Below the pieces are notes generated by a model. That model was not told where the DNA came from. It searched no databases and was given only the letters and a program-made list of their open reading frames with translations. From positions 1 through 52,106 of the forward strand of contig JAFDWK010000062.1 in assembly GCA_018268515.1 (NCBI GenBank): a DNA stretch of 52,106 bases, in the 5' to 3' direction. The position numbers were made by a program, and so were the translations under genes. Positions 5,019 to 44,402 of the stretch are shown one piece after another. Positions within the stretch are counted from its first letter, which is position 1; each line of letters opens with the position of its first letter. Source of the DNA: Actinomycetota bacterium (GTDB lineage Bacteria; Actinomycetota; Actinomycetes; Actinomycetales; Microbacteriaceae).

Positions 5019-5052
5019 GATACCACCACCTCAACACTTGAAGGAGATAGCG

Positions 5053-23892: not shown

Positions 23893-23907
23893 TACCCCTA
23901 CAGGGTA
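23893..23907. promoter_or_regulatory. CsoR operator between the AAA-aarF operon and csoR-copZA
   Basis: TACCCCTACAGGGTA, a dyad of TACCC and GGGTA around five bases, close to the known CsoR box. It sits in the 60-bp gap between two divergent operons, where one bound repressor could silence both until Cu(I) binds. Confidence 0.8.
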
Positions 23908-26900: not shown

Positions 26901-26925
26901 CCATCGCTCGAGAAGGAGACACACC

Positions 26926-28771: not shown

Positions 28772-30379
28772 TCAGGCCACAGCAGGGGTGCGCCGCCGCC
28801 AGGCGATCGCGCCGGTGAGGGCGAGACCACCCAGCCCACCCCACAAGGTGACAGCGGAGACGCCTTGCCCGATGAGGACGGCGGGGGTGATGCCGGTGCG
28901 CAGGTCGGTGTCGGCGATCAGCGCCCCGGCCTGTCCGGCGGGCAGACCGGTGAGGGTGCTGCCGTCGGGGCGGATGATCTGGCTGGTGCCGACGGTGGAG
29001 ACGTTCACCACGGTACGGCCGGTCTCTACCGCGCGGATCCGGGCGACCGCGAGCTGCTGCAGGTTCTCGTCCGTGCCGCGGAAGTCGGCGTTGTTGGTCT
29101 GGAACACCAGCAGCTCCGCACCGGCGGTGATGCTCTCGGCGATGACCTCGTCGTAGATCACGTCGAAGCAGATCGCCAACCCCACCGGCACACCGCCGAC
29201 GGTGACCAGCGGCACGTCCGTGCCGTGCGCGTAGTCGCGTTGCAGCAGCCCGACCAGGTCGGGGGCGAGCAGGGTGTAGAACGCCCGGTCGGGCACGTAC
29301 TCGCCGAACGGCACCGGGTGGCGTTTCGCGTGCGTCTGCACCTGCTCCCGCTGCGGCGTGGCACCGGTGGTGGCCGGGTCCCACAGGAACGACGTGTTGT
29401 AGATGTTGCCGCCCGCCGTGGTGGCCGCGTTCGCCAGCAGCGGGGCACCTGCCCGGGTGCTGATGCCGGTGAGATACTCGGCCAGCCACGGGGTCTGGAA
29501 CGGGTCAGCCTCCAGCCCTTCCGGCCACACCACCAGATCCACATCCGCGTCGAGCACCGGGCCGGTCGCGTCCCCCTGCGCCCGGGCGATCGCCCCCACG
29601 GTGCGCTGGTCGAAGTACCCGGACGGGCCGTTGCCTTGCACCGCCCCGACCCGCATCGTCCCGGCCGGTGTGGTGGGAAACGCCGGGACCAGGACCAGCA
29701 TCAGGGTGGTGACGGCGGGTACGGCGGCGGGGAACGGGCGACGCCACCGGCCGGTCCGGATGGCTTCGATCGCGGCGGCGACGGTGAAGACCATCAGGAA
29801 GGTGAGCCCGCTCACCCCGACCCAGGACACCGTCTGAACGAGGGGGCTGTCGGCTTGGGTGATCCCGAGCCGCGCCCACGGCAGCCCCCCGTACGGCCAG
29901 GCGCCCAGCAGCACCTCCCGGCCCGTCCACAACGCGGCCACCAGGCCCGGCAGCAGGAGCAGGCGTCCGACCGGGCCGGGGGCGGCGCGCGGCACCCACC
30001 GGTAGGCGAGTGCCAGCGGGATGATCCCGACCGCGGTCAGGGTCCCTTCCACCACGGTCAGTGCCGCCCACGGCACCGGCCCGAGATACCGGGTCGTCCA
30101 GGACACCAGCAGCCCGAAGAACAGCAACCCGAACACCGCCCCGACCGCCACCGCCCCCCACACGCTCCGGCCGATCAGGGCGAGAAGCAGCAGCCCGGTC
30201 GCGGCGAACGCGGCCGGCCAGAATCCCACCTCCGGGTAGGCGAGATCCATCAGCACCGCCGCGGCTGCCGCGACCGGCAACGCCATCGCCAATGGCATCA
30301 CCGCCCGGGCGCGGCGGTTCGGCGGGGTGGGTTGGGGGCGTCCGTGCGGGTCCTGGAGGGTCGTCGGGGTGGCGGTCAT
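28772..30379 (-). CDS. lnt: Apolipoprotein N-acyltransferase
   Basis: A 535-residue membrane protein. Several N-terminal transmembrane helices (about residues 28-250) precede a periplasmic nitrilase-like domain with the catalytic triad Glu287 (VVWPEG), Lys352 (AKRHPVPFGEY) and Cys404 (AICFDVIYDE), the order and spacing of E. coli Lnt. It adds the third acyl chain to the N-terminal Cys of lipoproteins. The ATG at 30379 overlaps the stop of the upstream flavoprotein gene. Lipoproteins nearby include ResA, DUF305 and the beta-propeller protein, so it may modify the island's own products. The host should have its own copy. Confidence 0.92.
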   Translation of the reverse strand: MTATPTTLQDPHGRPQPTPPNRRARAVMPLAMALPVAAAAAVLMDLAYPEVGFWPAAFAATGLLLLALIGRSVWGAVAVGAVFGLLFFGLLVSWTTRYLGPVPWAALTVVEGTLTAVGIIPLALAYRWVPRAAPGPVGRLLLLPGLVAALWTGREVLLGAWPYGGLPWARLGITQADSPLVQTVSWVGVSGLTFLMVFTVAAAIEAIRTGRWRRPFPAAVPAVTTLMLVLVPAFPTTPAGTMRVGAVQGNGPSGYFDQRTVGAIARAQGDATGPVLDADVDLVVWPEGLEADPFQTPWLAEYLTGISTRAGAPLLANAATTAGGNIYNTSFLWDPATTGATPQREQVQTHAKRHPVPFGEYVPDRAFYTLLAPDLVGLLQRDYAHGTDVPLVTVGGVPVGLAICFDVIYDEVIAESITAGAELLVFQTNNADFRGTDENLQQLAVARIRAVETGRTVVNVSTVGTSQIIRPDGSTLTGLPAGQAGALIADTDLRTGITPAVLIGQGVSAVTLWGGLGGLALTGAIAWRRRTPAVA

Positions 30380-31395
30380 GGCCGGTCCGCGATGGTGCGG
30401 GCGATTACGGCGGCGTCCCGGGACACCCCGGCGAGGGTGTCCGCTCCGGGGCGGCTGTGGGCGGGGATCCCGGCGACGAACAAGCCCGGCAGCCCGGTCA
30501 TCGCCGGGCGGGACCGGGCTGCGGTCGCCTCGGCGGGGAGCCAGTCCTCGCCGGGGTCGTACCCGGTGGCGAGGATTACCGAGTCCGGGGCGAGGGTGCT
30601 GCCATCGGCGAACGTGACCTGCCCGCCGTCCGCGCCGGTCACCGCCGGGGCGACCGCCACACCCGCGTGACGCAGCGCATGGTAGCTGTCGCCGAACACC
30701 GGCTGCACGGCGGGTGGGCGACCCAGCCAGGACGAGCCTGCCCGGGCGTGGACGGGGAAGGTACGGGCGGGTCGGTGCGGCCGTCGGGTGCGGACCGCGA
30801 GGGTGACCTCGTGGGAGGTGGATAGCTCTCGCGCCAGCTGCACGCCGCTGTTTCCGCCGCCGACGATCAGCACCCGCCCGGTGGGCACCTGCCGGGGGAA
30901 TTGGTAGTGGGCGCTGTGCAGCACCACCCCGGGCACCCGCAGCTGCTGCGCCCACGCAGGGATGCGGGGGTGGGTGGCGGCGCCGGTCGCGCACACCACG
31001 TTGCGGGTCTGCACGTCGCCCTCTGCGGTCTGCAGCTGCAGCACCGACCCGTGACCGACGCGTTCCACCCCGACCACACGCAACCCCCAGAACGGGTCCA
31101 CCCCCAGGGTGTGCTGCACCTGGTCCAGGTAGTTCGCGATCTCATCCGCCCGCGGGTGCTCGTGCGGGTCCACCGGTAGAGGCCGGACTGGCAGCGTGCT
31201 GTGGCGGGCGTCGGATAGCAGCCGCATCGAATGCCACCGGGACGCCCAACTGCGTTGCCGGTCCGTGGCGGCGTCGACGACCACGAACTCCTGCTGCGGC
31301 CGGAACCCCAACCCGATCAGCGCGGCGGCCACCGCGAGCCCGGCCTGCCCGGCCCCGACGATGATCGCCCGCCGATGCGTCAACCCCGACCGCAT
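30376..31395 (-). CDS. FAD/NAD(P)-dependent flavoprotein oxidoreductase
   Basis: A 339-residue protein with two dinucleotide-binding motifs: AIIVGAGQAGLAVAAAL near the N-terminus for FAD and VLIVGGGNSGVQLAREL near residue 170 for NAD(P)H. An ATGYDPG motif lies near residue 290, as in flavin monooxygenases of the CzcO/Baeyer-Villiger type. Related proteins (often labelled CzcO-like) appear beside metal-resistance genes. The substrate is not readable. The ATG at 31395 was chosen after a GGAGGGGGT ribosome site. It overlaps lnt (ATGA), so both share a leftward transcript. Confidence 0.82.
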   Translation of the reverse strand: MRSGLTHRRAIIVGAGQAGLAVAAALIGLGFRPQQEFVVVDAATDRQRSWASRWHSMRLLSDARHSTLPVRPLPVDPHEHPRADEIANYLDQVQHTLGVDPFWGLRVVGVERVGHGSVLQLQTAEGDVQTRNVVCATGAATHPRIPAWAQQLRVPGVVLHSAHYQFPRQVPTGRVLIVGGGNSGVQLARELSTSHEVTLAVRTRRPHRPARTFPVHARAGSSWLGRPPAVQPVFGDSYHALRHAGVAVAPAVTGADGGQVTFADGSTLAPDSVILATGYDPGEDWLPAEATAARSRPAMTGLPGLFVAGIPAHSRPGADTLAGVSRDAAVIARTIADRP

Positions 31396-31663
31396 CACCA
31401 CCCCCTCCCCGCAGAAGAGGGCCGGGGCGGGAATGGACGGAGGATGATCGCGCCGGCGCCGCGGCGGGACGGGGCCGGACGGGGCCGAGCGGGGCCGGGT
31501 GGGCGGCGGTGACCGGCCGCAGCCGTCGGCACCGGACCGGCGAAGGGGGCCGCCGTGATACGGGTCGTCAAGACATTCTCCAAACCTAGAAATCGGCATC
31601 ACACAGCGCCCGCACACGGGCGGGCGGGAAGACGCCGCCCATGGGTGGGCGGCATGCCGGATC

Positions 31664-32110
31664 TCAGGTTCGGGAAATCGACAACAGCAGCAGTGAGGGC
31701 GCGGCCGGACGCCGCGACACGGGCACCGGCACCAGCAGCGGCGCGCGCACCGGACGGGATACCCGCAGTATCCGCAGCCGGCCCTGGAGCCGGGAAGCCG
31801 TCACGGCCGCCAGTACCAGCAGCGTGCACACCACCCCGATCAGGCACCCCCACGCCCCGGACGCATCGACGGACACCCCCGCAGAGGACGACGCCGTCCG
31901 GCCCTCCACCGGTGCCCCCGAGTCTGGGGTAGAGCCGGTCGCGACGGGGGAGCCCGCACTGGTGTCGGCGTGCGCGTCAGCCGTGGTGTGGGAGGTGGTC
32001 CAGCCGCCGATGATGAGCACAAGTGCCAGGCCCAGGATGGTCAGCAGCCGCCCCGACCACCACCCCGCCGCGATGACCCGGTCGGGCCGGGATCGGGGGT
32101 CGCGGGGCAT
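31664..32110 (-). CDS. DUF6153-like membrane protein with C-terminal LSISRT tail (copy 1)
   Basis: A 148-residue protein with two transmembrane helices (about residues 20-40 and 86-106) and a Ser/Thr/Ala-rich loop between them. A Cys lies in the second helix (GAWGCLIGVVCTLLVLA). The extreme C-terminus reads PSLLLLSISRT. Two other proteins in the element (42480-42911 and 43100-43570) share both the layout and the SISRT ending. The function is unknown. It is divergent from the DUF4396-oxidase gene with its CsoR box. The 268 bp between its end and the flavoprotein start show no gene. Confidence 0.7.
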   Translation of the reverse strand: MPRDPRSRPDRVIAAGWWSGRLLTILGLALVLIIGGWTTSHTTADAHADTSAGSPVATGSTPDSGAPVEGRTASSSAGVSVDASGAWGCLIGVVCTLLVLAAVTASRLQGRLRILRVSRPVRAPLLVPVPVSRRPAAPSLLLLSISRT

Positions 32111-32263
32111 AGTCCCTCACTGTACCAATCCGACCTTTGCGTCTCCCGGATCTCGCCCGGCCGCAGGCCTTCCACGCCTTCGCCGACAGAGCAGCCACAT
32201 CGCGTCCACCGGCACGTCGTTCTCGATTATCGGCGAACGACGTCCGTCTCCTGAGCGGAAGGA

Positions 32264-32450
32264 TCAGTGCCCTCGGGGTGCCGTGGTGTCGGTCAAGGCG
32301 GGCAGCAGGATCGCCGTGACGCCGTCGGGGTCGAGTCTGCCGGTGCGGACTTCTTCGGCGGCGCCGTTGAGGACGGCACGGGTCGCTGAACTCCGCCGCG
32401 ATCGTCTCGGCTGCGTCAGGTTCGCCCCACCGGGCACGTGCACCCGTCGG
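32264..32450 (-). pseudogene. Possible short gene remnant split by a frameshift
   Basis: In the gap of about 420 bp before the multicopper oxidase, the minus strand reads WGEPDAAETIAAEF in one frame and then, one base out of phase, ATRAVLNGAAEEVRTGRLD and VTAILLPALTDTTAPRGH to a stop at 32264. The sequence looks coding by composition but is not recognised, has no clear start, and needs a shift near 32400. It may be a decayed end of a lost gene. The rest of the gap shows nothing apart from the CsoR box. Confidence 0.25.
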
Positions 32451-32477
32451 CACCCGAGGCGGCGCCGATTGAAAGAA

Positions 32478-32492
32478 TACCTATAGGGGGTA
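32478..32492. promoter_or_regulatory. CsoR operator upstream of the DUF4396-multicopper oxidase
   Basis: TACCTATAGGGGGTA; on the minus strand TACCCCCTATAGGTA. It is close to the CsoR consensus and to the box at 23893. It lies 43 bp before the TTG start of the oxidase gene. Confidence 0.75.
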
Positions 32493-32534
32493 TAAGGTGT
32501 GGGGGAGTCGTGTGCGAGGGAGAGGCGGGCGAGG

Positions 32535-34448
32535 TTGATTCAACCGATCGACTATTTCCTGGTCGCCTGGTTCGTGCTGGTCGCGATCAGCACGATCTGG
32601 GTCGGGGTGGACCAGTTCCGTCACAACCCGGAGCCGGCGGTGATGAAGTGGGGCTTCATCCTGGTCACCCTCTACCTGGGGCCGATCGGGGCGCTGCTGT
32701 ATGTGCTCGCGGACAAGGAGCCACGGCCGGGAGAGCATGAGGAGTTCACCCGGCCGCTGTGGAAGCAGGGCATCGGCTCGACCATCCACTGCGTCGCGGG
32801 CGATGCCACCGGCATCATCGTCGCCGCCGTCGTCGTCGCGTCGCTGGGCCTGCCGATGTGGCTGGATCTGATCATCGAGTACGCCGCCGGGTTCGCGTTC
32901 GGGTTGTTCGTGTTCCAGGCCCTGTTCATGAAGAACATGATGGGCGGCAGCTACTGGCAGAACGTGCGCCGCTCGTTCCTGCCCGAGTTCATCAGCATGA
33001 ACTTGATGATGGCGGGCATGGCGCCGGTGATGTCGCTGCTGATGATGGGCCGCGACATGCGGGCCATGCTGCCCACCGAGTTGCTGTTCTGGGCGGTGAT
33101 GAGTTTCGGGATCGCGGTCGGGTTCGTGCTCGCTTACCCCGTGAACGTGTGGATGGTGAAGAAGGGCCTCAAGCACGGTCTGATGACCGTCCGCCCCCAG
33201 CCCGCCACCCACCCCCAGGAGCATGACGCGCACGCGCAGCACAGCCCGCGGCCGGAGGCGCACGCCGGCCACGACCAGGCGGCGGGCGGTGCGTCGTCGC
33301 CGGGGTCGGGGCATGAGGCGCACCAGCCTTCTGGCGCCGGAGCGGTGACCGTGCCGCAGCTGACCGTGGTCGGCGCGTTCTCCGCGATCGCGCTCGTGGT
33401 CGGGATGGTCGCCCCCGCGAACGCCGTCAACATGACTCTCAGCGCGCACGACGTCGGTGGGCTGATCATGCCGCCCGGGATGATCATGACCCGTGACACC
33501 CCCGCCGAGGCGATGCGGGACATGGCCGCCGTCGACCCGCGGGCCGCGACCGCCGCGTACGACGTGGACACCCGCGGTGATGAGGTGCTGGAACCTGCCC
33601 GCGTCGAGGACGGGGTGAGGGTGTTCGAGCTGACCGTGTCGCAGATCCGCTGGGAGATCCTCCCCGGCGTCACCGTCGACGCGTACGCGTACAACGGGCA
33701 GATCCCGGGGCCTCGGCTGCAGGTCACCCAGGGCGACCGGATCCGCATCGACGTGACCAACGAGCTCGACGAGTCCACGACCGTGCACTGGCACGGCCTG
33801 GACGTGCCCAACGAGATGGACGGGCCCGCCGGGATCACCCAGGATCCCATCCAACCCGGCGACACCTACCGGTACGAGTACACGGTGAAGCAGTGGGGCA
33901 CGTTCTTCTACCACTCCCACGATCACGCCGACCGGCAGCAGGCCCTCGGCCTGTACGGGGCGCTGATCATCGACCCCGCCGACCCTGGCCTGCAGCCGCC
34001 TGCCGATCGCGAGTACACGATCCAGCTGCAGGAGTGGCTGTCCCGGGAGGGGCTGACCTATCCGGCGATGCCGATGGAAGGGGGCATGCCGAACTACTTC
34101 ACCATCAACGGGAAGGCGTACCCGGCCACCGAGACCATCGACATGAAGGTGGGGGAGACCCTCCGGGTGCGGTTCATCGGCTCGAACACCAACGACATCC
34201 ACCCGATGCACATCCACGGCGGCCCGTTCACCGTCGTCGCCCGCGACGGGGCGGCCCTCACCACGGCGCAGCAGTTCCAGGCCGACACGATCAACGTCGG
34301 GCCGGGACAACGCTACGACGTGCTCTGGAACGCGCTCGAGCCCGGCCAGTGGCTCATCCACTGCCACATCAACCACCACACCACCAACAACAACGTCGAA
34401 ACCGACGGCGCTGGCGGCCTGACCATGATCATCAACGTCACCGAATAA
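32535..34448 (+). CDS. DUF4396 membrane domain fused to a multicopper oxidase
   Basis: A protein of about 637 residues. Residues 1-215 form a polytopic membrane domain of the DUF4396 type (several helices, Met-rich around MMAGMAPVMSLLMMGRDMR). A His/Gln-rich linker and one more membrane helix (about residue 290) follow, then a two- to three-domain multicopper oxidase with the four copper-binding boxes HWHG, FYHSHDH, HPMHIHG and HCHINHH. It probably oxidises Cu(I) to the less harmful Cu(II) outside the membrane. The TTG at 32535 was chosen because GAGGGAGAGG lies upstream and the protein then begins at PIDYFLVAWF; a GTG at 32499 is possible. CsoR box upstream. Confidence 0.88.
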   Translation: MIQPIDYFLVAWFVLVAISTIWVGVDQFRHNPEPAVMKWGFILVTLYLGPIGALLYVLADKEPRPGEHEEFTRPLWKQGIGSTIHCVAGDATGIIVAAVVVASLGLPMWLDLIIEYAAGFAFGLFVFQALFMKNMMGGSYWQNVRRSFLPEFISMNLMMAGMAPVMSLLMMGRDMRAMLPTELLFWAVMSFGIAVGFVLAYPVNVWMVKKGLKHGLMTVRPQPATHPQEHDAHAQHSPRPEAHAGHDQAAGGASSPGSGHEAHQPSGAGAVTVPQLTVVGAFSAIALVVGMVAPANAVNMTLSAHDVGGLIMPPGMIMTRDTPAEAMRDMAAVDPRAATAAYDVDTRGDEVLEPARVEDGVRVFELTVSQIRWEILPGVTVDAYAYNGQIPGPRLQVTQGDRIRIDVTNELDESTTVHWHGLDVPNEMDGPAGITQDPIQPGDTYRYEYTVKQWGTFFYHSHDHADRQQALGLYGALIIDPADPGLQPPADREYTIQLQEWLSREGLTYPAMPMEGGMPNYFTINGKAYPATETIDMKVGETLRVRFIGSNTNDIHPMHIHGGPFTVVARDGAALTTAQQFQADTINVGPGQRYDVLWNALEPGQWLIHCHINHHTTNNNVETDGAGGLTMIINVTE

Positions 34449-34631
34449 CCCCACGAACCGAAGAACCGCCGCCGTTGTGGTCGCCGTTGCCGCGTCGAGT
34501 CACGTCCGCGCCCTCCGGCAGCACAGCAGGCGGATGCCAGGGGTGCCCAGCTCATCGTGCCCGACCGTTTCGGTTGCCGGAGGCCGAGATCGCCCGCCCG
34601 CCCGCAACGGGGCGCGGTGACCTCGCCGTGG

Positions 34632-36143
34632 TCAGGTGGTCGCGGGAGGGAGGACGCGTCGGCGGCGGGCGACGGTGACGGCCGCGGCGACCGTGAGTGC
34701 CGTCGAGACGGCGAGGAGCACGGTGCCGAGGATGATCTGCCCCGGTGACGGGGTGAGGGCGGTGACGGGCTGGTAGAGGTTGCGCTGCTGGCTCTGCGGG
34801 CCGGTGAGTTGCTGATCGACGGGCACCCACACCTCGAGGGTGCGTTCGCCGGTGGCGAACTGGGCGTACACGAACCACAGCCCCGGTGACGGCAGTGCCA
34901 GTTCCCCGGTGAAGGTACCGGGAGGCGGGGTGCCGGGTTGTGCGCGCAGCGGCGCGGTGAGGTCCTCTCCGGTGCGGCGGGCGACCAGACGGGACGGGGT
35001 GAGGTCGGTGTCGTCGGTGAGGCGGATGCCGGTGATGGTGACGGTCAGCTGCCCGGTGCCGTCGCCGGTGACGGTCATCTGTGCGGTGCCGTAGGCGGTG
35101 CCCTGGCCGGGGTCGTGCGCCTGCGCGGGTGGGGGCGGGGCGAGGGCGACCAGCAGAAGGGTGAGGGCCGCGGCCGCGCCGCCGGATCGGAGGCGAGTCC
35201 CCGGCCGCACGGTGAGGGCGATCATGCTGACGATGATCACCGTGGTGGTGCCGACGGCGGACCAGGCGACGGGGGTGGGTGGGACGCTGCTGATCCCGGT
35301 CCCGGAGGCCAGCAGTTGCAGGGTGGTCACGGCGAGGGCGGCCACCGGCCACCGCCACCGGGGGACGGGCAGGGCCAGCAGGAAGAGCCCGGCCACCGCG
35401 ACCGGCAGGTCGGGGGCGAGCCACCCAGAGGTGGTGAGCAGCACCCACAGCACCACCCGGAACACCAGGTACACGGCGACGACGAGGACAAGGCGGGTGC
35501 GGCCGGGGACCAGGGTGGTGATCACCCATGCCGCGCCGAGCGTGGTCGCCAGCAGCAGCGGCAGGTACAGGGTCTCGGTGAACTGGGGCACGTCGGTGTC
35601 GTATTCCATCACGATGATCAGCGCCGCCCCCAGCACGCCTGCGGCCAGGGCGATCCGCGGCGGGGCGGGCACGTGCCGGTCGGTGCCGGTGAGCAGGCCG
35701 ATCAGCACGCACAGGGTGCCGATCACCGACAGCAGGTGCGGGGGCGACCAGAGCACCGCGTCACGCCCGAACGCGGTGTGCCAGAACGCGTCGGCGGGCG
35801 CGGCCGCCGCGGTCGCGACCGCCGCAGCGACCGCGAGGGCGAACCCGGGAGTGCGGAACACGGCGGCCACGGATCGTGTCGCGGCCAGCCGCCGCCACCC
35901 CCAGCCGGCGATCACGACCCCGACGGTGAGGATCGACGCATACAGCAGCAGGTGCGGAGGGATGAAGGTGCTGTCCCGGCCGAGGGTGGTGTGCCAGGAG
36001 TCGTCCCAATACGCCGACCCAACCCCGGCGGCCGCGGCCGCTGCGGCGACCCAGACGCCCCCTGCCCCCAGCGCCGGGGAACCGCGGGCCGGGTCCGGCT
36101 CGGACGGGATGGGGGCGCGGTCACGGCTGCCGTGTGGTCGCAT
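34632..36143 (-). CDS. Polytopic membrane protein with duplicated WHTxxGRD...PPHLL motif
   Basis: A 503-residue protein with about ten transmembrane helices in its first 330 residues, then an extracytoplasmic beta-rich domain (about 345-450) and a final helix near 470-490. Two similar segments occur in the membrane part: DSWHTTLGRDSTFIPPHLLLY near residue 48 and AFWHTAFGRDAVLWSPPHLLS near 120, which places paired Trp, His, Asp and His residues as possible metal ligands. The soluble part (TVTGDGTGQLTVTITGIRL, LPSPGLWFVYAQ) has the look of an immunoglobulin-like fold as in FixH/CopC-type proteins. The function is not known. It ends the leftward CsoR-linked operon. Confidence 0.65.
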   Translation of the reverse strand: MRPHGSRDRAPIPSEPDPARGSPALGAGGVWVAAAAAAAGVGSAYWDDSWHTTLGRDSTFIPPHLLLYASILTVGVVIAGWGWRRLAATRSVAAVFRTPGFALAVAAAVATAAAAPADAFWHTAFGRDAVLWSPPHLLSVIGTLCVLIGLLTGTDRHVPAPPRIALAAGVLGAALIIVMEYDTDVPQFTETLYLPLLLATTLGAAWVITTLVPGRTRLVLVVAVYLVFRVVLWVLLTTSGWLAPDLPVAVAGLFLLALPVPRWRWPVAALAVTTLQLLASGTGISSVPPTPVAWSAVGTTTVIIVSMIALTVRPGTRLRSGGAAAALTLLLVALAPPPPAQAHDPGQGTAYGTAQMTVTGDGTGQLTVTITGIRLTDDTDLTPSRLVARRTGEDLTAPLRAQPGTPPPGTFTGELALPSPGLWFVYAQFATGERTLEVWVPVDQQLTGPQSQQRNLYQPVTALTPSPGQIILGTVLLAVSTALTVAAAVTVARRRRVLPPATT

Positions 36144-36203
36144 GGTCTGTCCTTTCTGTGATGCGGCAGGGAGCCGGTCCGGCCCTGGCGGCTAACGCCA
36201 TGG

Positions 36204-36226
36204 CCCCGCTCCCGGCGGCAGCGGGG
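36204..36226. terminator. Hairpin between ccdA and the downstream membrane protein gene
   Basis: CCCCGCT (36204-36210) and AGCGGGG (36220-36226) form a perfect seven-base stem with a nine-base loop in the 96-bp gap on the leftward operon. No U-run follows on either strand, so it may slow rather than end transcription, or protect the upstream mRNA. Evidence is symmetry only. Confidence 0.4.
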
Positions 36227-36239
36227 TGTTAGAGGTGTG

Positions 36240-36968
36240 TTAGAGGGGGAGCACGGTGGCTCCGATGAGGTTCTGGATGCTGGAGGTGAGGAGTGTCCAG
36301 GCTCCGCTGATCATCGCGATGCCGGTGGCGATCATGAGGACCCCGCCGGTGATGTTGATGGTGCGGATGTGGCGGCGCAGGAACGTGATGCTTCCGGTGG
36401 CCCAGTTCAGGCCGGCGGCGGCGGCGATGAAGGGCAACCCCAGGCCCAGGCAGTAGGTGACGGCGAGGAGGGCGCCGCGGGCGGGGTTGCCGGTGGTGAG
36501 GCTGAGGGCGGAGATCGCGGCGAGGGTGGGGCCCAGGCACGGGGTCCAGCCGAGCCCGAACGCGATGCCGAGCAGGGGAGCTCCGGCCAGCCCGCTGGGT
36601 GGGTGGATGGCGGGTTTCGCCGTGCGTTGGAAGAGCCGGAACACGCCGAGGAACACGAGCCCCATCAGCAGGACCACGATCCCGAGGATGCGGGTGAGGA
36701 GATCTTGCCAGCGGATGAGCCAGGCCCCCAGGGCGCCGAACGCGGCCCCGTAGCCGATGAACAGGACGGAGAAGCCGAGGGTGAACAGTCCGGTCCCGGC
36801 CAGCGCCCGCCACCGGGAGACCCCCGCGGTGGTGGTGGTGCCGGTGAGGTAGCCGAGGTAGCCGGGCACGAGGGGGAGCACGCAGGGGGAGGCGAAGGAC
36901 ACCAGCCCGGCGAGGAGGGCTAGGGGGAGGGCGGCCCAGATGCTGCCGGCGGTGATGATCTCCCCCAT
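36240..36968 (-). CDS. ccdA: CcdA-type thiol-disulfide membrane transporter
   Basis: A 242-residue protein with six hydrophobic helices and the two conserved membrane cysteines, in FASPCVLPLVPGYLGY (first helix) and GWTPCLGP (fourth helix). CcdA passes reducing power from cytoplasmic thioredoxin to outside thioredoxins such as ResA, which keep apocytochrome c thiols reduced. The start overlaps the resA stop (TGATG), and ccsB and resB lie upstream, so this is the System II cytochrome c maturation set. The host function is standard; its presence in a metal transposon is unusual. Confidence 0.93.
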   Translation of the reverse strand: MGEIITAGSIWAALPLALLAGLVSFASPCVLPLVPGYLGYLTGTTTTAGVSRWRALAGTGLFTLGFSVLFIGYGAAFGALGAWLIRWQDLLTRILGIVVLLMGLVFLGVFRLFQRTAKPAIHPPSGLAGAPLLGIAFGLGWTPCLGPTLAAISALSLTTGNPARGALLAVTYCLGLGLPFIAAAAGLNWATGSITFLRRHIRTINITGGVLMIATGIAMISGAWTLLTSSIQNLIGATVLPL

Positions 36969-37597
36969 CAGGGGCTCGTCTCGGCGAGGACGGTGTCGAT
37001 GAGGGCGGCGAGGGTGGTGCGGGTAGGCAGTTGCCCGATGATGCGGGCGGCCATCCGGCCGGTGCGGTCCAGGACGATTGTGGTGGGCACGGCGCCGGGG
37101 GCGGCTTTCCCGGCGAACGCGGCTTGCACCGTGCCGGTGGTGGCGTCCAGGATCGACGGGTAGGTGATGCCGAACTGGTTCTCGAACGCGGCGGCGGTGT
37201 CGGCGCTGTCGCGCACGTTGACGCCGATGAACACGACACCGTCGGGCTGGTAGGTCTGGGCGAGGGCTTCCAGGTCGGGCGCTTCGGCACGGCAGGGCGG
37301 GCAGGCGGCGTACCAGAAGTTCACCACAACGACCGAACCCGCCCACGCGGTGGAATCCGCCTGCTCCCCGGTGTCGGTGGTGCCGGTGAAGGTGACCGGG
37401 TCGTCGCGCTGGTCGGCGGGGATCTCCCGCACGGTCTCGTCCGCGGACAGATACCCCGGGGACGGGGAGGAGGACAACAGGCCGGGCGTCTGGGCGGTGC
37501 ACCCGGCCAGAAGCAGGACGAGCGCGCCGAACACGGCGACCGCGGCGGCGGTGACGGCGCGGCGGGGTGGGCGTGTCAGGGTGGTGGGGGTGCGCAT
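36968..37597 (-). CDS. resA: ResA/TlpA-like thioredoxin lipoprotein
   Basis: A 209-residue protein. The N-terminal signal ends in a lipobox LLLAGC (Cys33), so it should be a membrane-anchored lipoprotein processed by Lgt and perhaps Lnt of this element. The thioredoxin fold has the active pair Cys99-Pro-Pro-Cys102 (YAACPPCRAE) and a cis-Pro region (GAVPTTIVLD). It would reduce the CxxCH cysteines of apocytochrome c using electrons from CcdA, encoded next. An overlapping stop/start couples the two. Confidence 0.92.
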   Translation of the reverse strand: MRTPTTLTRPPRRAVTAAAVAVFGALVLLLAGCTAQTPGLLSSSPSPGYLSADETVREIPADQRDDPVTFTGTTDTGEQADSTAWAGSVVVVNFWYAACPPCRAEAPDLEALAQTYQPDGVVFIGVNVRDSADTAAAFENQFGITYPSILDATTGTVQAAFAGKAAPGAVPTTIVLDRTGRMAARIIGQLPTRTTLAALIDTVLAETSP

Positions 37598-37616
37598 GCG
37601 GGATCACTCCGGTCGG

Positions 37617-37892
37617 TCAGGTGTTCGTGCTCTTGCTGGTGGGGCGGCGGCGGCCGGCGAGGATGGCGCCGGTGATCAGCAGCAGCGCCCCGGTCGGGTA
37701 CCCGGCGACCAGGTCGAGCCAGCCGGAGGGCTGGCCGGGGCCGAACACTTCCAGGTGCGCGAGCCAGTGGATGATCGCGACGATCGCGCCGGCGGCCATC
37801 AGGGCCTGGCCGACCCGGACGAGCAGGCGGTGTCGCCGCCAGGCGCGTTGCGGGTCCTCAGCTGGGGCGGGGCGGGGGGTGGTGCGGGTCAT
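37617..37892 (-). CDS. Small two-helix membrane protein in the cytochrome c maturation operon
   Basis: A 91-residue protein with hydrophobic segments at about residues 24-42 and 62-80 and basic ends. A His (AIIHWLAHLEVFG) pair follows the first helix. It lies between ccsB and resA with gaps of 19 and 25 bp, so it is almost certainly co-transcribed. Similar small membrane proteins of unknown role occur in actinobacterial ccs clusters. No function is offered. Confidence 0.65.
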   Translation of the reverse strand: MTRTTPRPAPAEDPQRAWRRHRLLVRVGQALMAAGAIVAIIHWLAHLEVFGPGQPSGWLDLVAGYPTGALLLITGAILAGRRRPTSKSTNT

Positions 37893-37917
37893 GAGCGGTC
37901 CTTTCGCAGGGGGCGGG

Positions 37918-38916
37918 TCACAGTCCGGAGTAGGAGTGCAGCCCGGTGAAGAAGACGTTGACGACGCCGAAGTTGAACAGCACGGCGGCGAAGCCGACGA
38001 TGCACAGCCAGGCGGCGCGGGTGCCGGCCCAGCCGCGGGTGGCGGTGGCGTGCAGGTATCCGGCGTAGAGCACCCAGATGATGAACGTCCACACCTCTTT
38101 CACGTCCCACCCCCAGAACCTGCCCCAGGCGCGGCCGGCCCAGATCGCCCCGGCGATCAGGGTGAAGGTCCACAGGATGAACCCGACGATCGTCAGCCGG
38201 TATGCGAGTCGGTCCAGATCCTCCGGCCCGGGCAGACTGTCCCGCAGCCGGGTGAGCCGGGAGGGGAGGCCGCGGCGGCGGGTGGTGAGCAGGTAGGTGA
38301 GGGAGACGAGGAACGCGAGCCCGAAGAACGCGGTCGCCAGCAGCGCGACCAGCACGTGGATGACCAGCCACCCGGACTGCAGGGCGGGCATCAGGGGGAC
38401 GACGGGGACGTAGAAGCTGACCGTCGCGACGCCGAGCAGCAGCACGGTCAGCCCGAGCACGGCGCTGCCCAGGTACGCCAGCCGCACCCGCAGCGACACG
38501 GCCAGGAAGGTGGCGATGATCAGGGCGGTGCCGGTGAGGGAGAACTCGAACATGTTCGCCCACGGCACCCGGTCCGCGGCGACCCCGCGCAGCACCACCC
38601 CGGCAAGATGGAACACCCAGCCCAGCACGGTCAACACGAACCCGACCCGCGCCGCCTTCCCCGCCCCCCGTCCGCCCCCCGGGGCAGCGGCGGCACCGGG
38701 TGCGGTGTCGGGGGCGGGGGCGGTGGGTGTGCCTGCCAGGTCCGGGTCGGTGGTGCTGGTGGCGCCGGCGGTGACCGGCACCCGGACGGTGACCGGGACG
38801 GCAGGGGTGCTGGCGCGGCGGGCGAGGTGAAGGGTGTAGGCGACGAATGCGGCGGCGTAGATCGCGATCGCCGAGTACACCAGCAGCAGGGACAGGGCGT
38901 CAAGGAACGGGGTCAT
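37918..38916 (-). CDS. ccsB: Cytochrome c biogenesis protein CcsB (CcsA-type)
   Basis: A 332-residue membrane protein of the heme-handling protein family. The tryptophan-rich WWD-type motif appears as WGRFWGWDVKEVWTF near residue 275, where heme is presented at the outer face. About eight transmembrane helices are expected, with conserved His residues nearby. A disordered Pro/Ala/Thr-rich insert of about 45 residues follows the first helix. It works with ResB as the System II cytochrome c synthetase. The start lies inside the end of resB (17-bp overlap) and has GAGGAGG before it. Confidence 0.93.
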   Translation of the reverse strand: MTPFLDALSLLLVYSAIAIYAAAFVAYTLHLARRASTPAVPVTVRVPVTAGATSTTDPDLAGTPTAPAPDTAPGAAAAPGGGRGAGKAARVGFVLTVLGWVFHLAGVVLRGVAADRVPWANMFEFSLTGTALIIATFLAVSLRVRLAYLGSAVLGLTVLLLGVATVSFYVPVVPLMPALQSGWLVIHVLVALLATAFFGLAFLVSLTYLLTTRRRGLPSRLTRLRDSLPGPEDLDRLAYRLTIVGFILWTFTLIAGAIWAGRAWGRFWGWDVKEVWTFIIWVLYAGYLHATATRGWAGTRAAWLCIVGFAAVLFNFGVVNVFFTGLHSYSGL

Positions 38917-40546
38917 CAGAGCCTCCTCGAAGGGGTGCGGGGGAAGGGGTGAGGCGGGTGGCGAGGGTGTCGACGGTGGGTTGCAGGCGGGGGTCGTCGC
39001 CGCGGGCGAGCCCGGCGACCTCAAGCACCGTGCCGCCGTCCCGGCCGGTGGTTGCGCGGACCCAAAGGCGGCGGCGGGGCACGAACAGGGACAGGGCCAA
39101 CCCGGCCATCGCGACGACCGCGGCGATCAGAGTGGGGGTTTGGGTGGGGTCGGCGGCGATCTCCAGCGACGCGAATCGGGGGATCGGGCCGAGCTCGATC
39201 GTGCCCAGCTCGTCCGGCAGCGGAACCGGGGTGCCGGGGACCAACTGCAGGGCGGGGGTGGGGGTGCCCCGCCCGGCGATCTGGGTGAGGGTGCTGGTGT
39301 CCAGTGCGTACACCGACACCGGGACCCCGGTGTTCAGGCCCAGGTCGCCGACGTACACGTTGAAGGTGACGACCGGGTCCAGCAGGTCCGGGTAGCTGGA
39401 CGCGAACGCCCCAGAGGCGGTGGTCGCGCGGGTGGGGTACAGCATCCCGACCAGGCCGACCTGCTCGGCCAGCCCGTCGGGAACCTTCACGATGCCCAAG
39501 CTGGTCAAATTCGCGTCCTGCGGCAGGAACGGGACCGTGTCACGGAACACGATCTTCCCGGCCGGGTTTCGGACGGTGAGGGTGGGGGCGTACCCGTTGC
39601 CGAGCAGATAGATGTCGGTGCCAGCCACCGGCAGCGGCTCGTTGACCCGGATGCTGGAGGCCTGCCGGGTGCCGCCAGTGGTGGTCGTGACCTGCGCGTC
39701 GAACGTCTTCGGCATGCCGAGCGCGTTGACGTTGTCCAGGACGTAGTCGACGCGGAACCGGTCCAGGGTGAGGGAGAACGCCGGGATCTGCGTGTCAGTG
39801 ATGAACCGGCCGGCGGTGAACGAGTCGTACGCGATCCGGGTGGACGCGAACGTCTGCCCCTCCACCAGCACCCGCTGCCCGGTGAACCGGAACCCGCCGC
39901 CGACGCCGACCACGACCAGCACCGCCAGCAGCGCCACGTGGAACAGCAGGTTCCCGGTCTCCCGCAGGTAGCCGCGCTCGGCTGCGACCGAGTCCCGTCC
40001 GTCGTCGCCGCGGACCCGGCGGGTGCGGTACCGCTGCCGACGCAGCGCCTTCTCGGCCGCGTCCAAGACCGCACCGGGGGGCGTGTCGGGGAGGACGCGG
40101 CGGGTGTGGGCGGGCAGGCGGGACAGGTTGCGGGGGGTGGCCGGGGGCGGGGCGAGCAGCGCGGTCAGGTGGTGGCGGATGCGGGGGATGACGCAGCCGA
40201 TCAGCGACGCGAACAACAGCAGGTAGATCGCGGAGAACCACACCGACCCGAACACGTCGTGCAGCTGCAGCAGGTCCACCGCCCACATCCAGCCCGGGTT
40301 GGTCTTGTCGAACTGGATCACCCCGTTCGGGTCGGAGGAGCGTTGCGGGATCAACGACCCGGGGATCGCGGCCACCGCGAGCAGCAGCAACAACACCAGG
40401 GCGGTGCGCATGCTGGTCAGCTGCCGCCACGCCCACCGCGCCCACCCCGACACGCTCAGGCGCGGATTCGTGCGCTCCTCCACCGGCCGGTCGACGTGAT
40501 CGGCGGGCAGCTGCGGGGCCTGCTCACTGCGGATCGACACGCGCAT
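38900..40546 (-). CDS. resB: Cytochrome c biogenesis protein ResB
   Basis: A 548-residue protein of the ResB/Ccs1 family. There are transmembrane helices near residues 46-66, 100-120 and 200-220, a large extracytoplasmic domain (about 225-470) with VPFLPQDANLTSLGIVKV, and a last helix near 478-500. It is the partner of CcsB in moving heme outward and joining it to apocytochrome c. It overlaps lgt by 23 bp upstream and ccsB by 17 bp downstream, placing it in the long leftward operon that starts near the CsoR box at 42988. Confidence 0.93.
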   Translation of the reverse strand: MRVSIRSEQAPQLPADHVDRPVEERTNPRLSVSGWARWAWRQLTSMRTALVLLLLLAVAAIPGSLIPQRSSDPNGVIQFDKTNPGWMWAVDLLQLHDVFGSVWFSAIYLLLFASLIGCVIPRIRHHLTALLAPPPATPRNLSRLPAHTRRVLPDTPPGAVLDAAEKALRRQRYRTRRVRGDDGRDSVAAERGYLRETGNLLFHVALLAVLVVVGVGGGFRFTGQRVLVEGQTFASTRIAYDSFTAGRFITDTQIPAFSLTLDRFRVDYVLDNVNALGMPKTFDAQVTTTTGGTRQASSIRVNEPLPVAGTDIYLLGNGYAPTLTVRNPAGKIVFRDTVPFLPQDANLTSLGIVKVPDGLAEQVGLVGMLYPTRATTASGAFASSYPDLLDPVVTFNVYVGDLGLNTGVPVSVYALDTSTLTQIAGRGTPTPALQLVPGTPVPLPDELGTIELGPIPRFASLEIAADPTQTPTLIAAVVAMAGLALSLFVPRRRLWVRATTGRDGGTVLEVAGLARGDDPRLQPTVDTLATRLTPSPAPLRGGSDDPVP

Positions 40547-41414
40547 CCCCCCTCCCCCGGACGGGTGCGCGGCGGCGGGCGCGCCAGGAGGCGTGGGCGA
40601 GCAGCCCGACCCCCAGTACGGCGGCCACCAGGGCGGTGAGCACGTTCGCTTTCAGCCCGCCGGCGAGCAGCTCGGTGGGATCCAGCCGGATGGACTCCAG
40701 CACCGCCCGCCCCGCCCCGTACCACAGCAGGTACACGCCCAGACTCCGCCCGGCGCCCAGCGTGATCCGGCCGTGCCGGCGGCGGTGCTGCTCGAGCAGC
40801 ACGATCACGGCGGCACCGGCCAGGTTCCACAGCAGCTCGTACAGGAACAGCGGATGAAACAGGGTCCCCGCCGGGGTCCCCGGCGGGATCGCGGGGGCTG
40901 AGGGGTCGATCTGCAGCCCCCACGGTAAGGTGGTGGGCGGGCCGAACAGCTCCTGGTTGAAGTAGTTCCCCAGCCGTCCCACCGCCTGGGCGACCAGCAT
41001 CCCCGGCGCGAGCGCGTCCAGGAACAGCAGCACCGGGATCCCGGCGCGACGGGTGCCGATCACAATCCCGACCAGCCCGCCCAGGATCGCACCGAAGATT
41101 GCGATCCCGCCTTCCCAGATGTAGAGCACCCGCCACAGGTCCGCGCCAGGGAAGAAGTAGTCGCCGGGATGGGTGAGCACATGGTAGATCCGGGCGCCGA
41201 GGATCCCGAACGGCACCGCCCACATCGCCACATCCACCACGACCCCGGCCGGGTGCCCGACCGCCCGCAGCCGACGGCCGGTGATCAGCACCGCCAGCAC
41301 GATCCCGGCCAGGATCGCCAGCGCGTAGAACCGGATCTGGAACGGACCGACCTGAACGAAGCTGATCCCCGGGCTCGGGATCAGCGCCGGAGCCACAATG
41401 AGGAGTGCGTCCAT
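40524..41414 (-). CDS. lgt: Prolipoprotein diacylglyceryl transferase
   Basis: A 296-residue membrane enzyme that transfers diacylglycerol from phosphatidylglycerol to the lipobox Cys of prolipoproteins. The family signature is seen as GRLGNYFNQELFGPPT near residue 150, with GLQIDP and a HPLFLYELLWNL segment after it, plus GGIAIFGAILGG earlier and the initial RFYALAI helix. The start overlaps the M23 peptidase stop (TGATG). The element also encodes Lnt and several lipoproteins, so it holds its own lipoprotein pathway. Normal length and complete. Confidence 0.95.
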   Translation of the reverse strand: MDALLIVAPALIPSPGISFVQVGPFQIRFYALAILAGIVLAVLITGRRLRAVGHPAGVVVDVAMWAVPFGILGARIYHVLTHPGDYFFPGADLWRVLYIWEGGIAIFGAILGGLVGIVIGTRRAGIPVLLFLDALAPGMLVAQAVGRLGNYFNQELFGPPTTLPWGLQIDPSAPAIPPGTPAGTLFHPLFLYELLWNLAGAAVIVLLEQHRRRHGRITLGAGRSLGVYLLWYGAGRAVLESIRLDPTELLAGGLKANVLTALVAAVLGVGLLAHASWRARRRAPVRGRGDARVDPQ

Positions 41415-42256
41415 CAGGGCCTCACCCTCGCCGGAAGCCACGCCAGCGGGTCCACCGCTTCGCCTCCGGTGCGGATCTCGAAGTGCAGGTGTGCGCCGAA
41501 GCTGCGTCCACTGTCCCCGACCCGGCCGACCATCTGCCCCACCCGCACGGTCTGTCCCGGGGTCAGGGCGAGGGACCCTTCCCGCATGTGCGCGTACGCG
41601 CTTTCCACGACCTGCCCGTCGATCTCGTGCCGGATCACCACGTACACCCCGTACGCGCCGCCCTGCTCCGTCGCGGTGGTGACCACCCCGTCGGCGATCG
41701 CCTGGATCGGGGTGCCGATCCCGGGGGTCATGTCCAGTCCGGCATGGAAATTTGAGCAGGACGGGCATGGCGGGGTGCGGTACCCGAACGTGCTGCTGAT
41801 CGGCACTCCCACGGTGAACGGCCACTGCACCGCCGATGCCGGGTCGTTGGTGAATGTGTCCGCGGTGTGCGCGTACGACTCGGTCCCGACGGGGGCGGTC
41901 ACCGCCACCGTGTAGTCCCCGCGCACCATCACCGTCCCGGTGACGGTGTCGGGGGTGGTGAACGACTGGGCGCGCACCGGGGTGCGGGTCGCCTCGACGG
42001 CGAACACCGGCTCCGGCGTCAACGGGATCAGCAACGGCAGTCCGGCGATCGACGCGACCGGGAGCATCACCGCGCCGGCGAGCATCCGGGATCGGGTGAG
42101 CGTGCGGCGCGGCGCGTGTCGAGGTGTCCGGGCGGCACGGGTGGGCCGACGGCGTCGATCGCGTCGCGTCTGGACGGGTGGGGAAGACAGGGCGGCTCTC
42201 GCCGCACGGCGCGTTCCGGTACCGGGAGTCGGGGTGGAGGGGGCGGGTTCGGGCAT
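41414..42256 (-). CDS. Secreted M23-family metallopeptidase
   Basis: A 280-residue protein. After a basic N-terminus of about 60 residues comes a hydrophobic anchor or signal (residues 62-82). The LytM/M23 domain occupies about 155-280, with metal ligands in NFHAGLDM (His, Asp) and GAHLHFE (His). The His upstream of SAYAHMREG is also present. M23 enzymes cut peptidoglycan cross-bridges, or in some cases act in metal-handling loci. AGGAAAG lies before the ATG at 42256. It starts the coupled run lgt-resB-ccsB. The 223 bp between it and the DUF6153-like gene show no gene. Confidence 0.85.
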   Translation of the reverse strand: MPEPAPSTPTPGTGTRRAARAALSSPPVQTRRDRRRRPTRAARTPRHAPRRTLTRSRMLAGAVMLPVASIAGLPLLIPLTPEPVFAVEATRTPVRAQSFTTPDTVTGTVMVRGDYTVAVTAPVGTESYAHTADTFTNDPASAVQWPFTVGVPISSTFGYRTPPCPSCSNFHAGLDMTPGIGTPIQAIADGVVTTATEQGGAYGVYVVIRHEIDGQVVESAYAHMREGSLALTPGQTVRVGQMVGRVGDSGRSFGAHLHFEIRTGGEAVDPLAWLPARVRP

Positions 42257-42479
42257 ACAAGACTTTCCTGGATGAGGGGGACGATGAAGGTGCGCACGGT
42301 CGCCGTCACACGGTCCAACCGGGAGCCGCGGCCCGGAGTGCACGGCGAGAATCCGGGATCGGATCACCCATGGCGCTGCCGCAGACGGGTCGCGCTCGCC
42401 TGCGGGCCGCACATCGTGGACCGTCGGCGACATCACGCGCCGGCGGCGGCTCAGGCGGCGGGCGCGGGCGGGGTGCTGA

Positions 42480-42911
42480 TCAGGTGCGGCTGATCGACAG
42501 CACGATCAGGGAGGGCCGCAGAAGAGGCGACCCGGACGTGAACGAGCTCGACCTGCCGGGGAGGGATCGCAGCCACGCCAGCAGCGACATCCACCCGTCC
42601 CGGGCCGGGAGCACCAGGATGAGCAGGGTCAGCAACGCGAGCAGACACGTCACGGCAGCGAAAGCATGAGACGTCCCGCAGACCGTCTCATCGCACGAGG
42701 GCGTCACCACCCCGCTGACCAGGACATCAGCGGCGGCATCGGGGGCCGCAACGACTGCGGAGGCGGACACGACAGTGCCCGCCTGGTCCTCTTCCAGACT
42801 CAGCGAATGCATCGCAAGCAGCCCCGCGATGATCGCGGTCACCGCGGCCAGGTAGAACCACAGGGCACGCCGGGACCCGAGTGCCCGCCGTCGCGCCACC
42901 ACCTGGTTCAC
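42480..42911 (-). CDS. DUF6153-like membrane protein with C-terminal LSISRT tail (copy 2)
   Basis: A 143-residue protein. The GTG at 42911 was chosen because GAGGAAGGGG precedes it and it aligns with the start of its divergent sister at 43100; an ATG at 42944 is possible. First helix FYLAAVTAIIAGLLAMHS, a loop with Cys residues (PSCDETVCGTSH), second helix with a Cys (VTCLLALLTLLILV), and a tail ending PSLIVLSISRT. The paired sister gene across the CsoR box begins similarly (IALAIITGLLSMHV). A copper-linked envelope role is likely from context; the exact function is unknown. Confidence 0.72.
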   Translation of the reverse strand: MNQVVARRRALGSRRALWFYLAAVTAIIAGLLAMHSLSLEEDQAGTVVSASAVVAAPDAAADVLVSGVVTPSCDETVCGTSHAFAAVTCLLALLTLLILVLPARDGWMSLLAWLRSLPGRSSSFTSGSPLLRPSLIVLSISRT

Positions 42912-42973
42912 CGTCGACGCCCCTTCCTCGATCACGCCCAGCATACCCCGGGCGGGTAGCCATCCCCGAAGCG

Positions 42974-43003
42974 ATACCCATCCTGGATACCCCGGATGGG
43001 TAT
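42974..43003. promoter_or_regulatory. CsoR operator and large dyad between divergent DUF6153-like genes
   Basis: ATACCCATCC (42974-42983) and GGATGGGTAT (42994-43003) form a perfect ten-base inverted repeat around ten bases. Within it TACCCCGGATGGGTA (42988-43002) matches the CsoR box at 23893 in layout. It should control the leftward operon (DUF6153-like gene through ccdA) and the rightward operon (DUF6153-like gene through the CueO-like oxidase). Confidence 0.72.
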
Positions 43004-43099
43004 ATGCTGAGTGGTAGGGGGCACCCGCTCCCGTGCGTGGTGTTCTGACCGTGTCGCGGAGGCAAGGCACCGCTACCCTGGACGGGAAGGAGGTCGGTC

Positions 43100-44285: not shown

Positions 44286-44402
44286 CCCGGTACCCCTCGG
44301 ACGGGACCCGCGCTCCCGATGCCGGTCCCGTCCGAGGCCCCACCCTCGACCCCTGTGCGGTCACCGGTATCCGGCGTACCCGCACGGAAAGGACCTCCGT
44401 TC

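Follow-up and report, generated by a model that had tools for sequence, protein, structure and literature searches.

Spare lipoprotein-processing genes on copper elements have been described before. In the lit2/lgt2 operon of Listeria and Enterococcus a second lgt is carried by a mobile copper element, in a copper-induced transcript that it shares with lit2 and copper determinants (PMC8275575), and an lgt on an Enterococcus faecalis copper island had been noted already in 2015 (PMC4511184). Copper has also been reported to impair lipoprotein acylation in Escherichia coli (PMC6538781) and, in exploratory nuclear magnetic resonance experiments, to interact with the lipopeptide N-terminus (PMC8275575). 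In Corynebacterium glutamicum the copper stimulon comprises copper-resistance genes as well as cytochrome c maturation genes, with chromosomal hemL, a periplasmic thioredoxin, ccsA and ccsB being raised 3.6-4.6-fold, and the cop region (cg3281-cg3289) holds a thioredoxin-like TlpA (PMC3140484, Table 1). The stretch of DNA analysed here, hereafter the window, is the entire 52,106-nucleotide contig JAFDWK010000062.1 of a Microbacteriaceae bacterium (assembly GCA_018268515.1; 115 contigs, 3.7 Mb, 96% complete, 1.6% contamination), and it contains a mobile copper island encoding the prolipoprotein diacylglyceryl transferase Lgt, the apolipoprotein N-acyltransferase Lnt and the cytochrome c maturation proteins ResB, CcsB, ResA and CcdA. 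Labels beginning with L, G and C denote extracted loci, genomes and contigs, respectively, the window being contig C74 of genome G000.

Like the lit2/lgt2 operon, the window represents a mobile copper element with an additional lgt. The former is a Firmicutes system for which the account in PMC8275575 describes neither Lnt nor a cytochrome c set, whereas the actinobacterial window combines Lgt and Lnt with ResB, CcsB, ResA and CcdA; a Lit-like family was not found in the Pfam scans of its called genes, which covered a subset of the open reading frames. Also unlike in the window, the cytochrome genes of C. glutamicum lie elsewhere (cg0518-cg0524) and neither Lgt nor Lnt appears among the listed cop-region genes (PMC3140484). 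With the System II operon (resABC/ccsBA, ccdA) the island kit shares the same four functions and the conserved residues, but it is island-borne, exists beside a chromosomal duplicate, forms one run with M23 metallopeptidase and Lgt genes and is located behind CsoR-like boxes. In the literature searched, i.e. titles and abstract openings, no description was found of a cytochrome c set with Lgt, Lnt or LspA on actinobacterial metal islands, although the Arthrobacter plasmid papers may hold one. What was already known is thus a copper-induced mobile lgt2/lit2, while the cytochrome c set, Lnt and the repeated recruitment in actinobacteria seem to be new. We favour, with moderate confidence, the explanation that the island carries a spare extracytoplasmic maturation set, probably induced by copper through CsoR, which would sustain lipoprotein and cytochrome c assembly in the host when the housekeeping enzymes are poisoned by copper.

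The kit is a minus-strand run extending from 42436 or 42085 to 36240, in which the gene ends overlap or sit close together. It starts with a gene for an M23 metallopeptidase (41414-42436; PF01551, 7.5e-26) whose start is uncertain, either 42436 or 42085, the latter being the choice of the gene caller. There follow lgt (40524-41414; PF01790, 2.3e-60; above the curated cut-off of the NCBIfam equivalog TIGR00544), resB (38900-40546; PF05140, 5e-130), the CcsA-type ccsB (37918-38916; PF01578, 5e-41; TIGR03144 above cut-off), a small membrane protein of 91 amino acids without Pfam match (37617-37892), a ResA/TlpA-like thioredoxin lipoprotein (36968-37597; Redoxin PF08534, 2.7e-20) with the lipobox LAGC and a CxxC motif, which matches the NCBIfam ResA model below its curated cut-off, and a CcdA-like reductant transporter (36240-36968; DsbD_TM PF02683, 3.9e-9). 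CcsB further matches the structure 7s9y, a cytochrome c biogenesis protein (2e-22); ResB compared by sequence with solved structures gave no real match. Lnt is encoded on the same strand at 28772-30379 (LNT_N PF20154, 5e-26; PF00795, 2e-18; TIGR00546 above cut-off). All six genes named in a preliminary description of this DNA are hence present by their Pfam matches, with lnt, lgt and ccsB above equivalog cut-offs. For comparison we used 15 island loci (the window and 14 extra ResB copies), 15 plasmid loci and 26 chromosomal ResB loci, the last being the 13 plain copies of multi-ResB genomes and 13 from single-ResB genomes. Among these, the small membrane protein was detected by tblastn in 8 of the 15 island loci (window included), 2 of the 15 plasmid loci and none of the chromosomal ones, and no relative of it was found in viral contigs.

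Sequences resembling TACCC-N5-GGGTA, which we take to be the consensus of the CsoR-type operator, are enriched in the window: seven CsoR-like boxes with at most one mismatch occur, three of them perfect, against a shuffle mean of 0.49, and none of 100 shuffles reached seven; a box with a 4-bp spacer had no match in the window. Four boxes, two perfect and two with one mismatch, are clustered at 42944-43088 between divergent DUF6153 genes, and one of them overlaps the called start of the minus-strand DUF6153 gene (42480-42944; PF19650, 3.5e-6), which precedes the kit run on the same strand; the other DUF6153 gene lies at 43100-43570 on the plus strand (PF19650, 3.9e-9). On the plus strand a further perfect box (23893-23907) is located 5' of csoR (23934-24218; PF02583, 1.7e-29) and one with a single mismatch (32478-32492) about 42 bp 5' of the called start of a fusion oxidase gene, and the box at 11783, on the transposon side, has no copper gene near. 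The repressor gene is followed by those of an HMA chaperone, a CopA-type P-type ATPase and a YHS-domain protein (24265-27204, plus strand), i.e. the csoR with copper pump and chaperone that characterize a CsoR-regulated copper island. In L063 and L066, the nearest relatives, a perfect box about 80 bp 5' of a DUF6153 match heads a run of M23, lgt, resB, ccsB, small membrane protein, resA and ccdA in the order of the window, a layout that counts as one observation because the two loci are 96.5% identical. On the enriched consensus and this conserved layout, the kit is placed behind a putative CsoR-type operator. Matches to the box were detected in 8 of the 15 island loci (window included) and 4 of the 15 plasmid loci, in none of the 13 chromosomal loci of multi-copy genomes and in 4 of the 13 single-copy loci, with one mismatch each. 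The preliminary description had the whole kit lying beside a CsoR box; the pattern is real for the run headed by DUF6153, whose boxes lie outside the region then described, which ended at 42256, and it does not extend to lnt, which is not part of the boxed run and lacks a box directly 5' of its own gene pair.

In the mechanism that we propose, copper would release CsoR, leading to production of DUF6153, M23 and the kit, and the spare Lgt and Lnt together with ResA, CcdA, ResB and CcsB would take over from their copper-poisoned counterparts, whereby the host would continue to produce lipoproteins and respiratory cytochrome c and so benefit. Exposed cysteine thiols are the theme common to both halves of the set: Lgt, LspA and Lnt act on the cysteine of the lipobox, ResA and CcdA exchange thiols and disulfides, and the substrates of ResB/CcsB are the cysteines of CXXCH. 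Exposed thiols of this kind are prone to attack by Cu(I) and other soft metals. Accounts of metal resistance usually centre on exporting, sequestering or oxidizing the metal; repeatedly recruited spare targets would point to the envelope processes that metals break, namely extracytoplasmic cysteine chemistry, and such islands would amount to a natural catalogue of what copper, cadmium and zinc target, linking two usually separate strands, the copper damage to lipoprotein acylation and that to cytochrome c assembly.

Whether the host has chromosomal copies of its own had been left as a check in the preliminary description, and G000 does contain a full diverged set. ResA, CcdA, ResB and CcsB are encoded together on C8 (44, 51, 50 and 54% identical to the island proteins), Lnt on C11 (59% identical) and Lgt on both C83 and C115 (51% each). 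The C83 Lgt is the likely housekeeping copy, because its neighbours, judged from the protein starts, are presumably trpA and trpB and because the sole Lgt of the same-genus genome G096 is its partner in the Lgt tree. The C115 copy (L016), a third Lgt of this genome, falls in that tree with one copy from a Leifsonia plasmid and two from G069; it has an M23 gene near and no CsoR-like box, and metal-gene queries had no match in the stretch examined. As a source of the window's kit, recent duplication of host genes was rejected, island and chromosomal copies sharing only 44-59% identity.

The client of ResB/CcsB would be a host cytochrome c, probably the di-haem subunit of the bc1 complex. PF13442, the one cytochrome c family searched genome-wide in G000, has its sole match on C30, where a stretch of 500 bp contains two domains, the arrangement expected of such a subunit; in the assembly the two haem motifs of this gene (L164) fall in different reading frames. 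A piece of the C30 gene used as query matched none of the 56 loci. An island cytochrome c as client was considered and rejected, CXXCH-type patterns among the window's called genes matching only TniQ. A CXXCH scan of stop-to-stop frames of at least 80 amino acids with a coding-like G+C pattern, a filter that leaves short or atypical genes and TniQ outside, found no cytochrome c gene in the 15 island loci and two unconvincing candidates in the 15 plasmid loci, one overlapping a P-type ATPase gene and the other preceding the start of an annotated hypothetical protein. Since these 30 loci yielded no convincing cytochrome c gene in the filtered scan, ResB and CcsB probably serve the host.

For Lgt and Lnt the clients may be both host and island lipoproteins. 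Lipoboxes were called in four genes of the window, encoding the ResA-like protein, CopM/DUF305, F510_1955 and the second multicopper oxidase, which bears out the earlier statement that the element makes several lipoproteins. We think it unlikely that the kit finishes the island's own cargo only, with Lgt and Lnt processing copper lipoproteins, ResA and CcdA serving copper enzymes and ResB/CcsB being carried along: the four lipobox proteins fit such a role, as does the ResA-like protein, itself a lipoprotein and encoded in one run with Lgt, but, with no convincing cytochrome c gene in the filtered scan of the 30 loci, ResB/CcsB would be left without a client, and the chromosomal Lgt, LspA and Lnt could process the cargo. 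Of the two interpretations offered in the preliminary description, replacement of damaged host machinery is the better supported, by the failure to find a convincing cytochrome c gene on the island, the boxes with their conserved layout and the repeated recruitment, and the other, that the element ensures the finishing of its own proteins, may still apply to Lgt and Lnt, as the island encodes lipoproteins. More doubtful is a remodelling of lipoprotein N-termini so that copper is no longer coordinated, as proposed for Lit2 (PMC7387801), the cytochrome half then being a separate matter; the host already has Lnt, many islands have Lgt or LspA and not an N-acylating enzyme, and ResB, CcsB, ResA and CcdA would go unexplained.

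The kit genes are intact, and the window's proteins keep most of the columns that are invariant in the chromosomal copies: 105 of 111 in ResB (26 copies), 69 of 73 in CcsB, 48 of 50 in CcdA, 23 of 24 in ResA, 66 of 73 in Lgt (17 copies) and 77 of 78 in Lnt (14 copies). ResB His203 is retained in all 56 aligned proteins, CcsB His187, His289 and His327 in 49 out of 49 and the CxxC of the ResA-like protein in 52 out of 52, Cys29 and Cys144 of CcdA are invariant in the alignment, and the W-x-W-D motif of CcsB is found in 20/24 metal-locus and 22/25 chromosomal proteins. By these sequence marks (ResB and CcsB histidines, W-x-W-D, ResA CxxC, CcdA cysteine pair) the island kit is of the System II type of cytochrome c maturation. 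They speak against a re-purposing of ResA, CcdA and CcsBA, e.g. as a source of reductant for multicopper oxidases or copper carriers with no cytochrome c being made, which we regard as improbable: multicopper oxidases do occur in the window and in five of its nine mapped relatives (L061, L067, L071, L106 and L018; not L063, L066, L070 and L075), and the ResB of the window lacks a membrane-interface histidine that is common among chromosomal copies, but the ResB and CcsB histidines and the ResA CxxC are kept in every aligned protein, W-x-W-D in most, and ResB in the window departs from its invariant columns at few positions.

A comparison of metal-binding residues between the island and chromosomal versions, suggested in the preliminary description, did not bear out the idea that the island enzymes are stripped of such residues overall. 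In the Cys and His counts (metal versus chromosomal rows: ResB 30/26, CcsB 24/25, CcdA 24/26, ResA 26/26) cysteine is not significantly lower in island ResB, CcsB, CcdA or ResA, being higher in CcsB and slightly so in ResB, and histidine is lower in metal-locus ResB (1.34 vs 1.58%, p 0.006) and higher in CcsB. One ResB column, chosen post hoc after all columns had been screened for Cys, Met or His differences, holds a histidine just before the last membrane segment in 24/26 chromosomal versus 3/30 island or plasmid copies, the window having Ala464. Among the best 80 ResB loci, a second set that overlaps the first (L182 is L073), this histidine is present in 62/65 plain copies versus 1/7 with metal and lipoprotein genes. 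In a 68-row tree, built with a random 16 of the 65 plain copies and leaving out eight metal-only or Lgt-only loci and the plasmids of other orders, it is absent from 22/26 island copies, which have Ala, Ser, Gln or Asn, versus 3/42 chromosomal ones. A tree-corrected sign test on six pairs (on average 3 in the expected direction and 0.2 in the other; median p 0.25) was not significant, and we regard the loss of this histidine as a lead, not a result.

The recurrence of such sets was surveyed in the family. ResB occurs in all 120 Microbacteriaceae genomes, with one copy in 107, so that the single-copy status earlier ascribed to these genes holds for ResB, and with at least two in 13, each of which retains one ResB in plain chromosomal context. 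Loci of 14-20 kb were extracted around the 27 other ResB copies of these 13 genomes and from 13 of the 107 single-copy genomes. A lipoprotein maturase was detected within the 20-kb locus of 12 of the 14 extra ResB copies (window not counted) versus 0 of the 26 chromosomal ones (Fisher p 1.6e-8, relatedness ignored); in L073 a weak LspA match was confirmed by Pfam. Tblastn of the 26 chromosomal loci found none of Lgt, Lnt, LspA, DsbA, CsoR, ArsR, CDF, CopC or P-type ATPase, and a metal gene is present in all extra-copy loci except L058, the ATPase matches of L070 being weak (166 and 198 bits) and L057 being the same DNA as plasmid locus L091. Genome-wide, with the window's copies included, at least two Lgt occur in 10/13 multi-ResB versus 0/13 single-ResB genomes, at least two LspA in 11/13 versus 1/13 (G001), an extra Lnt above cut-off in 8/13 versus 0/13, and any extra Lgt, Lnt or LspA in 13/13 versus 1/13; the corresponding numbers for the controls were 6 versus 7 for YidC and 9 versus 11 for S26 signal peptidase above cut-off. 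Of the best 80 loci, seven have lipoprotein maturase and metal genes, one Lgt only (L224), seven metal genes only (a lone CDF in six) and 65 neither. Hitch-hiking or plasmid addiction, in which housekeeping copies are carried by chance or to make hosts dependent, is very improbable, for although housekeeping genes occur on plasmids (LepB-like matches in 117 records, of which Staphylococcus 41 and Bacillus 13, and nine actinobacterial ones among 40 matches listed), it is lipoprotein maturases, rather than YidC or signal peptidase I, that accompany the extra ResB, all 13 multi-copy genomes retain the plain chromosomal ResB, and the box-operon layout is conserved.

The kit is mobile, as had been supposed, because the islands L063 and L066, from two genera (G037 and G056), share 12,753 bp at 96.5% identity, whereas their chromosomal loci match in pieces only, with the ResB stretch 73.5% identical over 1,593 bp, a contrast that fits a recent transfer between lineages. 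In a ResB tree of 56 proteins, in which the chromosomal counterparts of the other-order plasmids were left out, the label chromosome or metal changes seven times, at least five of these changes being forced by well-supported branches, a count valid for this sampling and covering changes in either direction. The island ResB of L073 and L077 are sisters of the chromosomal copy of their own genome (99/95 and 100/100), two Microbacterium plasmid and two island ResB form a clade sister to the chromosomal copies of G000 and a same-genus relative, and the window's island ResB is one of seven in a clade made up of island copies alone (100/98). In the Lgt tree the proteins of eight islands likewise form one clade (100/99), and L071 pairs an Lgt of the island clade with a chromosome-like ResB, so that parts are exchanged. 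These trees suggest that metal loci recruited such sets several separate times.

ResB matches 94 plasmid records. From the 60 listed, 15 regions spread over genera were examined in stretches of 18-38 kb with an incomplete gene table; in 14 of these stretches Lgt, LspA or Lnt is present (LspA 11, Lnt 7, Lgt 3; L100 none), in 11 a DsbA-like or thioredoxin-domain gene and in eight VKOR, and an annotated signal peptidase I was found in none. Plasmid metal regions of Arthrobacter sp. FB24, Rhodococcus rhodochrous BX2 and Streptomyces sp. CdTB01 resemble the window in having ResB with CcsB/TlpA/CcdA and LspA, Lnt or Lgt beside metal genes; unlike the window, such regions often have DsbA-like and VKOR genes, and boxes occur in few of them. 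Many plasmid ResB regions have ArsR, cadmium or zinc genes, and therefore the pattern concerns soft metals, not copper alone. As an observation apart, the ResB/LspA/Lnt sets in L094-L101 are repeatedly accompanied by pairs of DsbA-like and VKOR genes, some also by CtaD or SURF1. VKOR matches 95 plasmid records and Lgt 313, of which 201 are from Enterococcus, and in the one Enterococcus faecium plasmid examined an HMA gene and a P-type ATPase gene come after lgt. For LspA the L019 query matched 14 plasmid records but was too distant to serve for plasmid counts, and LspA was counted by Pfam in genomes. Beyond what was first described for the window, the pattern is widespread, on actinobacterial plasmids and that of E. 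faecium, other metals are involved and the lgt2/lit2 precedent is in print. One might tentatively generalize that target replacement is a resistance arm against soft metals in Gram-positives at large, with islands recruiting inducible spare copies of Lgt, LspA, Lnt, ResA/TlpA, CcdA, ResB and CcsB, often with DsbA-like and VKOR proteins, and some copies being hardened, as at the ResB histidine, but this wider idea seems to us rather doubtful.

Several observations count against a copper-induced spare set for the host. Lnt lies apart from the kit run, behind a flavoprotein gene, and the lipoprotein set is incomplete as the island is without LspA. Boxes occur in just 8 of the 15 island and 4 of the 15 plasmid loci, and with ArsR, cadmium or zinc genes next to many sets, copper explains only part of the pattern. 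The 20-kb loci L053 and L058 lack a lipoprotein gene, such genes lying further off on the same contigs, and in L224 Lgt adjoins ResB but metal genes are absent. Signal peptidase I is near ResB in one island locus (L070) and about 21 kb from ResB on a Kineococcus plasmid, which is among the nine actinobacterial records with a LepB-like match. With the C30 haem motifs out of frame, an intact client gene is uncertain; some changes in the ResB tree could be moves from island to chromosome, and a contig may be wrongly binned.

Beyond the plus-strand DUF6153 gene are those of the CopM/DUF305 and F510_1955 lipoproteins (43671-45263, plus strand), followed by a phosphoketolase, a second P-type ATPase and a lipoprotein multicopper oxidase (45322-51915, plus strand). 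The phosphoketolase gene is directly 5' of that of the ATPase (45322-50393), a pair that recurs on Mycolicibacterium and Rhodococcus plasmids (H1-H7), and the enzyme might provide a way round a step of glycolysis that is sensitive to copper, for example glyceraldehyde-3-phosphate dehydrogenase. At 21049-21591 a 180-amino-acid NAD-binding protein with a DapB_N match, whose gene adjoins an ArsR gene and a P-type ATPase gene, matches the N-terminal part of glyceraldehyde-3-phosphate dehydrogenase below cut-off. The same contig carries Tn7-like transposition genes at 4209-10795, namely TnsA-like (weak), TnsB-like with rve (weak), TniB and TniQ, with a G+C content below that of the island and preceded by a YobI-like P-loop NTPase gene (609-3677). 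No tRNA was detected in the window, and an Rfam scan of it gave no family above threshold.

Between Lnt and the kit, the flavoprotein oxidoreductase (30376-31395, minus strand; PF13738, 5e-22) is ArsO-like, with NF040505 below cut-off. Next to it, a small protein without Pfam match is encoded at 31664-32110 on the minus strand. The oxidase gene behind the box at 32478 (32535-34448, plus strand; PF14342 and PF07731/07732/00394) joins a DUF4396 membrane domain and a multicopper oxidase in one protein, and its counterpart on a Leifsonia plasmid (L018) is 72% identical. A membrane protein encoded 3' of the kit and in the same direction (34632-36143, minus strand) matched no family above cut-off and has tblastn homologues in L061, L075, L018 and L102. 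The C-terminal end LSISRT is common to three small membrane proteins near CsoR-like boxes, encoded at 31664-32110, 42480-42944 and 43100-43570.

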